Shown piece by piece: positions 1,504 to 37,547 of a DNA stretch of 38,986 bases. Every line of letters begins with the position of its first letter. Positions within the stretch are counted from its first letter, which is position 1. A model generated the notes under the pieces. The model did not search any database. It worked only from the letters and a program-made list of their open reading frames with translations, and was not told the DNA's origin. Both the position numbers and the translations under genes were made by a program. The DNA comes from Muribaculaceae bacterium (GTDB taxonomy: Bacteria > Cyanobacteriota > Vampirovibrionia > Gastranaerophilales > Gastranaerophilaceae): contig JAMPCZ010000005.1 in the NCBI GenBank assembly GCA_023665935.1, positions 1 through 38,986 of the forward strand, read 5' to 3'.

Positions 1504-1633
1504 TATTATATCCTTTTTATGTGATGCGTTATAAAAAGAATAATTTGTAGTGAAAAAATATTTAATAAACCAAGTGTACAGATTTTAGTATAAAATTTAG
1601 CAAAATTTTATATGTCTGGGTTTTATTACGAAT

Positions 1634-3079
1634 ATGATTACATCAATTTACTTATCAAATTATCAACCAAATAAAAATAAATTACAGCCTTCGTTTGGAA
1701 GTAAAACTGCTGCAATTACAACTGAATATTTGATGCAGTTGATAAACAGCGGAAAAACAGTAAAAGAAATTAAATCTGAACTTGGAATTGCAACTGATAC
1801 CTATTATAAGCTGCTTAGAGAACGAGGAATTTCATACAAAAAAATAAAAACCTCTCCGACTCCTGATATTACAAAAGAACAGCTGGCTGATTTATTGAGT
1901 CAAGGTATAACCGTTCCAAAGATATGTGAAATGCTGAAAATTACGGCTCATAAATATTATAGATTGGTTGAAAAGTTGGGCGTGAAAAATTCAAGGACTG
2001 CCAAAAGTGAAAATCGTGCAAAAGTCACGGCGGAAGCTTTGGCGCAATGTGTTAAAAAGGGAATGGCTGTAGATGATATTTGTAAATTTTTCGGGATTTC
2101 AGGCAAAGCTTATTATGATTTCTTGAAAAAATTTGGGATTAAAACTCCTGCAATGTTGAGTACTCAGCGTAATGCTTCTATTACAAAAGAACAAATAGTT
2201 AAACTGATTGATGCCGGAAAGTCTGTCAAAGAGATATCAGCAGAATTAGGTATCACTGAGAGTGCGTACACTTCTTTGGTTTCAAAGTTCGGGATTCAAA
2301 CGGAAGCAAAGCTCGCAAAACAAAGACTTTCAGGTGTTACGGAGGAGTGCTTGAGAACTCTTGTCACTTCGGGTAAGTTCGTCGACGAAATTTGTGAAAA
2401 GTTAAATATTCCGGTTCGTACCTATTCAAGATTGCTTGATAAATTTGGTATTATAACGGATAGAAAAGCTGCAAAGGCTCGGGTAGCTTCTATAAAAAAA
2501 GAAGAACTCCAAGCATTGGTGGATGAGGGGTTAACTCCGAAAGAAATTTCCCGTAGGTTGAATATTCCGACTGCTTCTTTTTATAAACTATTAAAACGGT
2601 TGAAAATAGATTATACTTACGCGCACCATCAGAGAGAAATAGTTATTCCAAAAGCAAAACTTGAGGAGGCTGCAGCTTCAGGAAAGTCTGTTGATGAGAT
2701 AGCAAAAGATTTGGGAATTGCTACAACTACATATCATGAAAAAGCAAAGCTGGCTCAAGTAAAAACAGTGTTTCGGGATTCTATTGATAATCTTAATGCG
2801 ATACCAAAGGAAACAATACAAAAACTGTTGGACTCAGGAGAAAGTGTTGAGCAAATCTGCGAAAAATTAAATATCACTAAAGCAAATTATGTTGCACTTC
2901 TTAGAAAATATAATCTTGATACTGCGCAAAGACGTTCGCTTGAAAATATTGCCAATATTAGCAAGTCACAGGTTTTAGAGTTACGTGCCGACGGTAAAAC
3001 CAATAAAGAAATCTGTACCGAATTAAATATAAGTATGCACACTCTTAGACGGATTCTGAACGCTAATTCCGGAATGTAA
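1634..3079 (+). CDS. Protein of nine tandem helix-turn-helix repeats
   Basis: I do not recognise this 481-residue protein as a named family. After a short leader ending LQPSFGSK (residues 17-24), it is built entirely from nine homologous units of about 40 residues starting at residues 28, 79, 131, 183, 235, 287, 338, 390 and 442, a period of 51-52. Each unit reads approximately [IV]-[TPSK]-x-E-x-[LIV]-x(3)-[LIV]-x(2)-G-x-[ST]-x(2)-[EDK]-I-x(3)-L-x-I-x(3)-[TAS]-[YF]-x(2)-L, ending in a short helix such as KFGI. This resembles a resolvase/sigma-type HTH (…GKSVKEISAELGIT…). Linkers are 10-14 residues and basic. There is no enzymatic domain, signal peptide or membrane segment. It would be expected to wrap DNA over many contacts, but that is inference. 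There is no clear Shine-Dalgarno upstream of the ATG. It is divergent from glf, with 130 bases between. Confidence 0.85.
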   Translation: MITSIYLSNYQPNKNKLQPSFGSKTAAITTEYLMQLINSGKTVKEIKSELGIATDTYYKLLRERGISYKKIKTSPTPDITKEQLADLLSQGITVPKICEMLKITAHKYYRLVEKLGVKNSRTAKSENRAKVTAEALAQCVKKGMAVDDICKFFGISGKAYYDFLKKFGIKTPAMLSTQRNASITKEQIVKLIDAGKSVKEISAELGITESAYTSLVSKFGIQTEAKLAKQRLSGVTEECLRTLVTSGKFVDEICEKLNIPVRTYSRLLDKFGIITDRKAAKARVASIKKEELQALVDEGLTPKEISRRLNIPTASFYKLLKRLKIDYTYAHHQREIVIPKAKLEEAAASGKSVDEIAKDLGIATTTYHEKAKLAQVKTVFRDSIDNLNAIPKETIQKLLDSGESVEQICEKLNITKANYVALLRKYNLDTAQRRSLENIANISKSQVLELRADGKTNKEICTELNISMHTLRRILNANSGM

Positions 3080-3123: not shown

Positions 3124-3330
3124 AAATGTCATTCTGAGGGCGAAGCCCGAAAGAATCCAGCTGATAAGTTTATATCAAAAGCTGGATTGCTTCGCTTTCA
3201 CTCGCAATGACAAAATGAGCTCATCCTAAGGCTTTAGGCGAAGGAGCTCATAATAAAAAGAGATTCTTCGCTCAGAATGACGAGAATTTTGTAAGGAAGT
3301 CGTCATTGCGAGTGAAAGCGAAGCAATCCA
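3124..3330. repeat. Cluster of dispersed GTCATT-type inverted repeats
   Basis: This intergenic stretch holds several repeat copies of the GTCATTCTGAG…AAGAATCC type. A perfect 29-base inverted repeat pairs 3183-3211 with 3302-3330 (core GCTTCGCTTTCACTCGCAAT). Between them an 8-bp stem ATGAGCTC (3215-3222) pairs with 3244-3251 and encloses CCTAA/TTAGG (3225-3229/3234-3238). A second pair of arms, GTCATTCTGAG at 3128-3138 and CTCAGAATGAC at 3271-3281, is interleaved. Such elements are common non-coding repeats in many bacteria. Here they follow the nine-HTH gene and may also stop its transcription. Confidence 0.75.
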
Positions 3331-3482
3331 GTCTTTTGGTAAAATTCTATCAGTTGGACTCTTTCGGTCTGCACCTCGCCGTAAATGCTACCGCTCACAC
3401 TTGGCGTCAAGACTCAACGTCTAGCCGATGAGTGTTCTACTCTCGCTTCGCTCGTTATGTTATTTCATGTTGTTAGAATTTA
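3331..3482. other. Non-coding, locally GC-richer spacer
   Basis: Together with the repeat cluster, this makes a 418-base gap without a convincing gene. From about 3355 to 3460 the base composition is visibly richer in G and C than the surroundings and contains CTCTCGCTTCGCTCG, similar to the neighbouring repeats. Short open frames through it have no start signal and no recognisable protein. I see nothing functional beyond repeat-derived DNA. Confidence 0.4.
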
Positions 3483-13993: not shown

Positions 13994-15355
13994 TTAATGT
14001 TTACCTGTTGTGAAACCGACTCCAGGTCTTGTCTGCTTGTCTTTGTAGTCGGACTCTTTGACTTTCATATTTTGGTTTTCTTTTACCGGAATAATGAAGT
14101 CATCGGCAATCAAGTCTCGGCGATTATCTTTTCTTGCGATAAGAGAAGCTTTATCTGTAAGGATTGCGATATCTCTGTTTGAAAATCCTTCTGTCAGTGC
14201 GATAACTTTTGTAAGCTCATCAGTATCAGAGGCTAATTTTTGTCCCTTCGTTCTTTTGTTGAGGTGGATTTTCAAAACCTCTCCTCGGGTCAGTGCATCC
14301 GGCAGTCCGACGTAAATTTTATCATCAAGTCTACTTCTTACAGCTTCGTCAACCATATCATACTTGTTTGTTGCACCTAAAACTACAACGTTCTTACCCC
14401 TGGCTTCTTCAATTATTTGAAGTAATGTTCCGACCATTTTAACGTCTTCTTTTGATTCGTCGCCTCTTTTTGGTGCAATTGATTCAAACTCATCTATTAC
14501 TAAAAATACAGGTTTTCCAGTTTCTTCCGCAACTTTGCAGACATATTCGTATGCTTTTTGTATATTTGTTGAGCTTTCGTTGATATATTTTGAACCGGCT
14601 TTTGAAATCTTAAGTTTATACATCGGTAGCTTTGATTCTGCAACTAATGCTTCAATTGTTGTCGTTTTACCACAGCCCGGAGGTCCGTAGAACATTGTTC
14701 CGCGCGGATACTTCTTGCCGTATTCTATTTCATCAAGTTTTGCTTCTTCCGGGTTTTGAAGAGGATACAAAATCTTATCTCTAAGTAATTCTTTCACTTT
14801 TTTCATTCCGCCTACGGATTCAAGCCCGGTTGGCGAAATCGGAGTTGGGACAAATTCTTCCAAATATTTCGGGCACTTATTGCTTTTCGTTTTTGCAGGT
14901 GTATCTGTATCTTCTCCGGTTTCGATTATTTCGACAACATCTTTGTCATCAGTCGGACCGCTGTTCCAGTCTGCGTAATCGTTCAATTCGTCAGTAATTT
15001 CATCAATCCAGTGATATTCTTCTTTTGAGATTCCTCGTTTTTCACGTTCTTTTTTATAGGTTTCCAGTTCTATATCTTTGTATTTTAGCAGGGGAAATCT
15101 GTCATTTAATTCTTCAGCAAGAGCCGGTTTGATGTTTACAAGCATGGTTGCGTATATTTCCATTGCTCGGTAATTCTTTTCGGTTTCGGCTTTTCTTAAT
15201 AAATCTTCTGTTTTATTACAAAGCTGATTCATCTCTAATAAATGATTGGCAACTTCTTTATTTCTTTTTGCTTTCTTTAATTTATTGTTAACCGTATCAT
15301 TCAATTCTTTGTTGTAACCGAATTGTATCGGGGTATTGATTGCGTTAATTTTCAT
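13994..15355 (-). CDS. AAA+ ATPase with N-terminal helical region
   Basis: This 453-residue protein has one classical AAA+ module. Walker A is GPPGCGKT (residues 224-231), Walker B is FLVIDE (284-289), sensor 1 is GATNK with N330, and arginine-finger candidates are R340 and R342 in AVRSRLDD. Residues 15-130 are charged and helical and may be an adaptor or substrate-recognition region. The segment before the ATPase (TGLESVGGMKKVKELL) is like the entry to FtsH/Cdc48-type modules, but there is no protease or membrane domain. The first residues MKINAINTPIQFGYNK form a short leader resembling those of other orphan proteins in the window. AAGGAG precedes the ATG. The substrate is unknown; remodelling of a partner protein is the general expectation. 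Confidence 0.88.
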   Translation of the reverse strand: MKINAINTPIQFGYNKELNDTVNNKLKKAKRNKEVANHLLEMNQLCNKTEDLLRKAETEKNYRAMEIYATMLVNIKPALAEELNDRFPLLKYKDIELETYKKEREKRGISKEEYHWIDEITDELNDYADWNSGPTDDKDVVEIIETGEDTDTPAKTKSNKCPKYLEEFVPTPISPTGLESVGGMKKVKELLRDKILYPLQNPEEAKLDEIEYGKKYPRGTMFYGPPGCGKTTTIEALVAESKLPMYKLKISKAGSKYINESSTNIQKAYEYVCKVAEETGKPVFLVIDEFESIAPKRGDESKEDVKMVGTLLQIIEEARGKNVVVLGATNKYDMVDEAVRSRLDDKIYVGLPDALTRGEVLKIHLNKRTKGQKLASDTDELTKVIALTEGFSNRDIAILTDKASLIARKDNRRDLIADDFIIPVKENQNMKVKESDYKDKQTRPGVGFTTGKH

Positions 15356-15468
15356 TAATATATTACTCCTTGTTACGTTTTTAAACCTTGTAAAAAATTA
15401 ATTTGCTAGATGAGTTTAACTAAATTTACTTTTTGTTATAAAATATTATTGAGTTGAAGGAGAGATAT

Positions 15469-37176: not shown

Positions 37177-37547
37177 TAATCGGACATCTTTGGCAGATCG
37201 GTGTCAAAATTGATGGTATCTGATATTTGGTAAGCTTTTTCGTAGTCTTCGTATGCTTTTTTGTACTCTTGGTAAGATTTTTCAATGCTTCTTTGAAGTT
37301 CAATCATTTCTTGTTCGTGTCTGTCTAAAATTTCGTTCATTCTATCGCGGTGTTGCTCAAGCATTATTTTACCGCCTCCGTAGGCTATTGCCAAGCATGC
37401 CATAGAGGCTGCAGCTGAAATTCTCAATGCTCTTTTGTAACCGTCTGAAGGGTTTTCATTTCTTTTATCAGCTTGGGTAAAATGCAGGTTATTTTTGTTT
37501 TTAATTGGCGCGTTATAATAATTTGTTGTAATTTGTGATATTTTCAT
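37173..37547 (-). CDS. Small membrane protein with coiled coil, unknown function
   Basis: A 124-residue protein. A leader (MKISQITTNYYNAPIKNKNN, then LHFTQ) precedes one transmembrane segment (RALRISAAASMACLAIAYGGG, about 40-60). A long charged coiled coil follows (EQHRDRMNEILDRHEQEMIELQRSIEKSYQEYKKAYEDYEKAY). I know no function. The leader resembles those of the nine-HTH protein, the AAA+ ATPase and the frameshifted gene. The start has no strong Shine-Dalgarno; GGAAAA lies upstream. Convergent with rlmN, with a 4-base overlap. Confidence 0.75.
   Translation of the reverse strand: MKISQITTNYYNAPIKNKNNLHFTQADKRNENPSDGYKRALRISAAASMACLAIAYGGGKIMLEQHRDRMNEILDRHEQEMIELQRSIEKSYQEYKKAYEDYEKAYQISDTINFDTDLPKMSDY

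Follow-up and report, generated by a model that had tools for sequence, protein, structure and literature searches.

A fixed-order array of nine helix-turn-helix units

What might a protein do that consists, apart from a short leader, of nine tandem helix-turn-helix (HTH) units? The question is raised by a gene in a 38,986-nucleotide stretch of DNA (the window) from a member of the Gastranaerophilaceae. The initial annotation had reported nine units with a period of 51 to 52 residues, starting at residues 28, 79, 131, 183, 235, 287, 338, 390, and 442, and filling the whole protein. A unit profile hidden Markov model (HMM) and autocorrelation returned the same units: the unit HMM found nine with start-to-start spacings of 51, 52, 52, 52, 52, 51, 52, and 52, and the repeat signal peaked at lag 52 with a value of 0.71 (BLOSUM62 autocorrelation; maximum over all lags in 500 shuffles, -0.22). 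The units occupy residues 28 to 481, which bears out the annotated absence of any further domain, but residues 1 to 27 are a separate disordered leader, and to that extent the units do not fill the protein. The gene and its parts are as follows.

1634..3079, + strand: nine-unit HTH array protein gene (open reading frame with ATG start, 481 amino acids)
1634..1714, + strand: N-terminal leader, residues 1-27, with PSFGSK motif; low complexity, predicted disordered (pLDDT about 30 over residues 1-20)
1715..1867, + strand: HTH unit 1, residues 28-78 (unit HMM, autocorrelation; AlphaFold helices 30-38, 43-50, and 54-63)
1868..2023, + strand: HTH unit 2, residues 79-130 (unit HMM, autocorrelation, AlphaFold)
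2024..2179, + strand: HTH unit 3, residues 131-182 (unit HMM, autocorrelation, AlphaFold)
2180..2335, + strand: HTH unit 4, residues 183-234 (unit HMM, autocorrelation, AlphaFold)
2336..2491, + strand: HTH unit 5, residues 235-286; the best-conserved unit across the whole alignment
2492..2644, + strand: HTH unit 6, residues 287-337; conserved Y-x-Y-x-H-H/N linker
2645..2800, + strand: HTH unit 7, residues 338-389 (unit HMM, AlphaFold)
2801..2956, + strand: HTH unit 8, residues 390-441 (unit HMM, AlphaFold)
2957..3076, + strand: HTH unit 9, residues 442-481; short (40 amino acids), with no linker helix

That the units adopt HTH folds, as first proposed, is upheld by a match to Pfam HTH_23 (PF13384; 2.9e-40, 135.5 bits against a gathering cutoff of 24.6, in six stretches) and by an AlphaFold model (13 related sequences; mean pLDDT, 78.4), in which nine three-helix units follow a disordered leader and a linker helix succeeds units 2 to 5, 7, and 8. 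The model and the HTH structures matched both agree with the three-helix HTH fold of the homeodomain-like/HTH_23 superfamily. With a pTM of 0.32, the placement of units relative to each other is unreliable; thus, the superhelix geometry cannot be judged. As modeled, the array is nine tandem, tri-helical, homeodomain-like (HTH_23 type) units.

Comparison with known repeat proteins

The initial annotation regarded tandem HTH arrays of this number and regularity as a nonstandard architecture; HTH-only arrays as such do have precedents, in Cbp1 (three units), in actinobacterial plasmid proteins (five to six units), and in the designed protein 8vd6. HTH-only arrays are thus already known; what is new here is the presence of nine or more units, their collinear conservation, and integer unit loss.

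Cbp1 of the Sulfolobales (NF040595, PDB entry 2lvs) is the best natural analogue. Both proteins are HTH-only, with tandem duplication and short linkers, while Cbp1 has three units rather than nine, is archaeal, and is tied to CRISPR arrays. On the CRISPR repeat, the three HTHs of Cbp1 are arranged in 5'-to-3' order, and recruitment of the chromatin protein Cren7 is the role of the third (PMC10883916). The NCBIfam model HTH_Cbp1 matched our protein in four stretches, with model positions 6 to 134 of 135 over units 1 to 3. It is nevertheless scarcely credible that the array protein is itself a Cbp1-type CRISPR-repeat binding factor: although the match covers the whole model (E value, 4.6e-24), its 84.9 bits fall below the curated family cutoff of 140, nine units take the place of the three HTHs that make up a whole Cbp1, and Cas1 is missing from 13 of the 14 genomes with arrays of this family. 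CRISPR-repeat binding was rejected on account of the missing Cas1.

The actinobacterial plasmid arrays (Euzebya pacifica WP_216826637.1 and Streptomyces WP_329204021.1) likewise consist of a single domain type, with five to six tandem HTH_23/38-type units at a spacing of approximately 48 to 50 residues; they differ in having fewer units, in their identity of about 20%, in lacking the F-x-G leader, and in being plasmid-borne. These loci, on Streptomyces and Euzebya plasmids, were retrieved by tblastn and then the unit HMM (L099:2462-3289, + strand, five units; L100:2306-3205, + strand, six units). The designed CAP repeat protein (PDB entry 8vd6) was the top match by sequence and in the first fold search, and second in the second fold search. 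It shares short helical HTH-like tandem repeats with the array but is a de novo design, not a natural protein, and has a period of about 33 residues.

Myb/SANT repeats (e.g., Reb1, PDB entry 5eyb) resemble the array as three-helix HTH-related tandem repeats of about 52 residues that lie on DNA. However, they have a tryptophan core, with three regularly spaced tryptophans per repeat, and usually number two to four, whereas the array protein contains no tryptophan at all. TALE-type repeats share with it the idea of an ordered modular reader, but they are two-helix repeats of about 34 residues in which a variable pair of residues specifies the base. The array instead has three-helix HTH units with a period of 51 to 52 residues, varies over helix 3 and the linker, and is free of repeat homogenization. 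Nor does the protein resemble a homing endonuclease with tandem HTH/NUMOD domains, as no nuclease family is present among the 25 Pfam matches listed. The D5 protein of phage T5 was rejected as a relative because the unit model found only one clear HTH in it.

Relatives within Gastranaerophilales

Full-length relatives of the window's protein (P0001) share 37 to 56% identity with it and come from six genera of one Gastranaerophilaceae-like family. Several are collinear over all nine units, which implies that each unit is separately maintained. Three others (L053, L051, and L059) have seven units and keep the leader, as if the first two units had been lost. A profile of three consecutive units gave matches in 39/286 genomes of the order, all within one family and covering 11/50 genera; the array family is patchily distributed within Gastranaerophilales. 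These genomes are metagenome-assembled (MAGs), and genes were called mechanically, from the first ATG that follows a stop.

Nine loci were retrieved when 84,980 GTDB r220 species were scanned; those with a lineage label are Gastranaerophilus, Melainabacteria, or Gastranaerophilales, apart from one MAG labeled Fusobacterium. The exceptional MAG is genome G160, from the same family as the other carriers, and the species scan retrieved no array relative outside Gastranaerophilales. The initial annotation's pointer to this order thus proved correct. A search of the phylum gave two further matches in other families (L094 and L095); one protein carries leucine-rich repeats after approximately five HTHs, and the other has several HTHs within a longer protein that looks nuclease-like at its ends. 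A phage or plasmid origin was rejected, as phage records and viral contigs held no match and the only plasmid arrays were the remote ones on two actinobacterial plasmids. Our literature search on HTH arrays or promoters of Gastranaerophilales found nothing relevant.

Other arrays were seen in the same lineage. In several species of the same genus, a diverged group with five to seven units (L003 to L006, in genomes G033, G005, G002, and G015) adjoins a ribonucleotide reductase gene. One species encodes a 1,128-amino-acid protein (L008:394-3777, + strand) with 13 HTH units at a spacing of 43 to 49 residues and extra helical-looking regions at both ends. The window genome itself has a second array gene with longer unit spacing (contig C103).

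Indirect evidence for DNA binding

Among the closest structures, DNA-binding HTH proteins predominate (Mos1, Tc3, KorB, DesR, Cbp1, and Reb1), with middling Z scores for the single-HTH matches. Across 13 orthologues, mean charge by unit position is positive at positions 3, 14, 32, 35, 36, 44, and 47; it is negative at positions 4 and 18 as well as on the outward sides of helices 1 and 2. In P0001, the charge difference between the DNA face (positions 14, 32, 35, 36, and 44) and positions 4 and 18 was reached in 0/5,000 within-unit permutations, an optimistic figure since these sets came from general HTH knowledge and were picked after the columns had been seen, with position 3 left outside. 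The pattern is as expected for DNA binding, positive on the DNA side and negative away from it. The protein as a whole is basic (pI, 9.6).

Variation between units proved to be concentrated in the second half of each unit, as initially annotated (mean pairwise identity, 0.195 at positions 27 to 52 versus 0.39 at positions 1 to 26). It is not, however, centered on the recognition helix (identity, 0.24), as the linker is the most variable part (0.10). Across orthologues, the DNA-facing helix-3 positions of units 4 to 9 showed no significant excess conservation over other exposed positions (0.48 versus 0.39; P = 0.25), which speaks against a strict reading of bases unit by unit. Several third helices are weakly charged or neutral (net 0 in unit 4); certain units may therefore serve as spacers. 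The comparison of orthologues singles out units 1 and 5. Most sequences like P0001 have the motif P-E/V-R-T-Y-S-R in unit 5, and, by eye, its recognition-helix residues R28 and R32 are retained in most orthologues; these two arginines presumably match base-contacting residues of the Hin recombinase HTH. The proposal of a modular DNA reader thus has a precedent in Cbp1, while its further claim of a few bases read per unit is unproven, the base-contact positions not being conserved as a block. For the same reason, and because variation is not centered on the recognition helix, a TALE-like code was rejected.

These data bear on two readings. In the first, which we favor and consider somewhat probable from the combined analyses, the array is an intracellular double-stranded-DNA-binding protein, an ordered binder of a long site or of clustered sites that would act as a regulator or local organizer. 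The chief rival, which we regard as doubtful, is a largely nonspecific nucleoid-associated protein whose many weak HTHs coat or bend DNA through phosphate contacts with little sequence preference. The array protein's high net charge (81 K+R versus 54 D+E), the poor conservation of base-contact positions, and the absence of a fixed gene neighborhood would all suit this rival, as would a single-copy, patchy distribution, which fits an accessory architectural protein. A purely nonspecific binder would, however, tolerate unit exchange, and the units are instead conserved individually and in order, with unit-specific residues: between P0001 and L002, position 35 is identical in 7/9 units and position 41 in 7/8. 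This unit-specific conservation counts against nonspecific binding.

The array is most likely a long-site DNA-binding or architectural protein. In the mechanism that we propose for the ordered reading, the units would dock, one after another and in fixed order, into consecutive major grooves of a single long DNA site, like the Cbp1 HTHs; an ordered lie is suggested because the whole Cbp1 model fits units 1 to 3 and the HTHs of Cbp1 align along its repeat. The protein would then probably wrap along a long stretch of DNA as an extended Cbp1, and rough scaling from Cbp1 (three units on an approximately 24-bp repeat) gives a span of up to about 60 to 70 bp for nine units. Each unit may contribute modest affinity, with most of the specificity supplied by a few units (unit 5, together with unit 1 in proteins that have it). 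The outcome would be a high-affinity binder of a long site or clustered sites, serving as a regulator or a local chromatin-like organizer.

Locus and upstream element

The array is a single-gene locus with no fixed neighbor, and neighborhoods differ across the P0001 family. The window and genome G071, from another genus, nonetheless have the order glycosyltransferase, glf, array in common, with the array divergent from glf and 68% identity both for glf and for the glycosyltransferase fragment. This shared order points to an old locus that was partly inherited vertically. Just downstream of the array gene, an interspersed repeat forms an inverted pair (3177-3211 and 3302-3336) with the palindromic sequences GTCATTGCGAGTGAAAGCGAAGCAATCC / GTCATTGCGAGTGAAAGCGAAGCAATCCAG. 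It has 17 copies in the window genome (at most two mismatches) and few or none in relatives; absent from the 13 remaining carriers of P0001-family arrays, it was rejected as a common array target.

Upstream of the gene lies a second feature.

1599..1625, + strand: upstream element AGCAAA-n13-GGGTTTTA, putative promoter, 35 nucleotides before the array ATG

In the form AGCAAA-n12-14-GGGTTTTA, the element precedes most array genes as well as several genes that encode a leader; the window has another copy near position 15407 (- strand). Written as [AG]GCAAA-n10-15-G-n0-2-TTT, it is found upstream of most array genes, in many exactly 34 to 36 nucleotides before the ATG. A Shine-Dalgarno motif is missing from 15/16 genes in which the element is close to the ATG, against a background presence of 33%, which fits a leaderless mRNA. 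From these sequence features, we tentatively class the element as a putative dedicated promoter, possibly a leaderless one; given the spacing and the missing Shine-Dalgarno motif, the array mRNA may itself be leaderless.

One might instead see in the array an orthodox regulator, either of the adjoining cell-surface genes (the divergent glf and the glycosyltransferase) or of its own gene via the element. The gene order common to the window and G071 and the conservation of the element upstream of most array genes speak for such roles. We consider them highly improbable, as other relatives adjoin unrelated genes (tuf, atpD, and a PHP-domain gene) and the element also lies upstream of nonarray genes and in G006, a genome that gave no hit in the array searches. 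On the latter evidence, we rejected the element as a private operator of the arrays.

An N-terminal leader shared with orphan proteins

Most array proteins of the lineage start with an N/Q/T-rich leader that ends in F-x-[GA]-[K/R]. By a strict definition, the leader was found at 20/664 N termini (9 of them from array proteins), compared with 8/2,200 internal windows and 2/664 C termini. A lenient pattern is noisy, and in the order's other families its matches mostly resemble signal peptides. Similar N/Q/S/T-rich leaders occur on unrelated, lineage-specific orphan proteins, two of them in the window (leaders at 15275-15355 and 37458-37547, both - strand) and others at L027, L028, L031, L042, L114, L115, L136, and elsewhere. 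When 20 leader-bearing or leader-like proteins were scanned, most had no Pfam family, the exceptions being an AAA+ ATPase in the window, CheR, GH77, and DHH proteins. The window's ATPase gene (13997-15355, - strand; PF00004) encodes an F-x-G-like leader (MKINAINTPIQFGYNKE) and has the upstream element.

Element and leader co-occur (odds ratio, 14.6; P = 4e-10) in a set of 677 genes from loci partly chosen for holding arrays, the same loci from which the element was derived. After removal of array genes, by a simple pattern flag that misses at least one array, the odds ratio was 7.5 (P = 7e-4). On fresh sequence with fixed definitions, it was 4.9 (P = 0.047) in G138, 11.6 (P = 0.14) in the window genome, and 5.7 (P = 0.014) when pooled; apart from this fresh-sequence comparison, our tests were chosen while the data were in view. 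The array gene seems to share its promoter type with other leader-bearing, lineage-specific genes.

The shared leader invites the reading that the main role of the protein lies outside DNA binding: the HTH units would serve as a scaffold or in protein interaction, or the leader would target the protein to a particular place, even out of the cell. Both the disordered F-x-[GA] leader on unrelated proteins and the weak conservation of base-contact positions lend this reading something, but both the charge pattern and the similarity of fold favor DNA, and the leader is also present on usually cytoplasmic enzymes (GH77 4-alpha-glucanotransferase and DHH phosphoesterase). We consider it improbable. 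The presence of the leader on such enzymes makes a simple export signal unlikely, and this candidate function was set aside as weakened.

Significance

Little work has been devoted to natural arrays in which many HTHs follow a fixed order, and the three-unit Cbp1 is the best-characterized example that we found. A family with 3 to 13 units, collinear orthologues, and integer unit loss offers material for testing how far HTH arrays can be lengthened for the reading of long DNA, and it could show whether the order of units encodes the order of sites, a goal of protein designers. A bolder proposal, which we hold to be possible but rather unlikely, combines both strands of the analysis: the array would be a natural reader, in order, of a DNA site of exceptional length and, at the same time, a member of a hitherto unrecognized, lineage-specific Gastranaerophilaceae gene set, marked by the disordered F-x-[GA]-[K/R] leader and a dedicated AGCAAA-n12-14-GGGTTTTA promoter from which transcription would often start at or close to the ATG. 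For the many orphan genes of this uncultured gut lineage, the leader and the promoter-like element that they share provide a handle.
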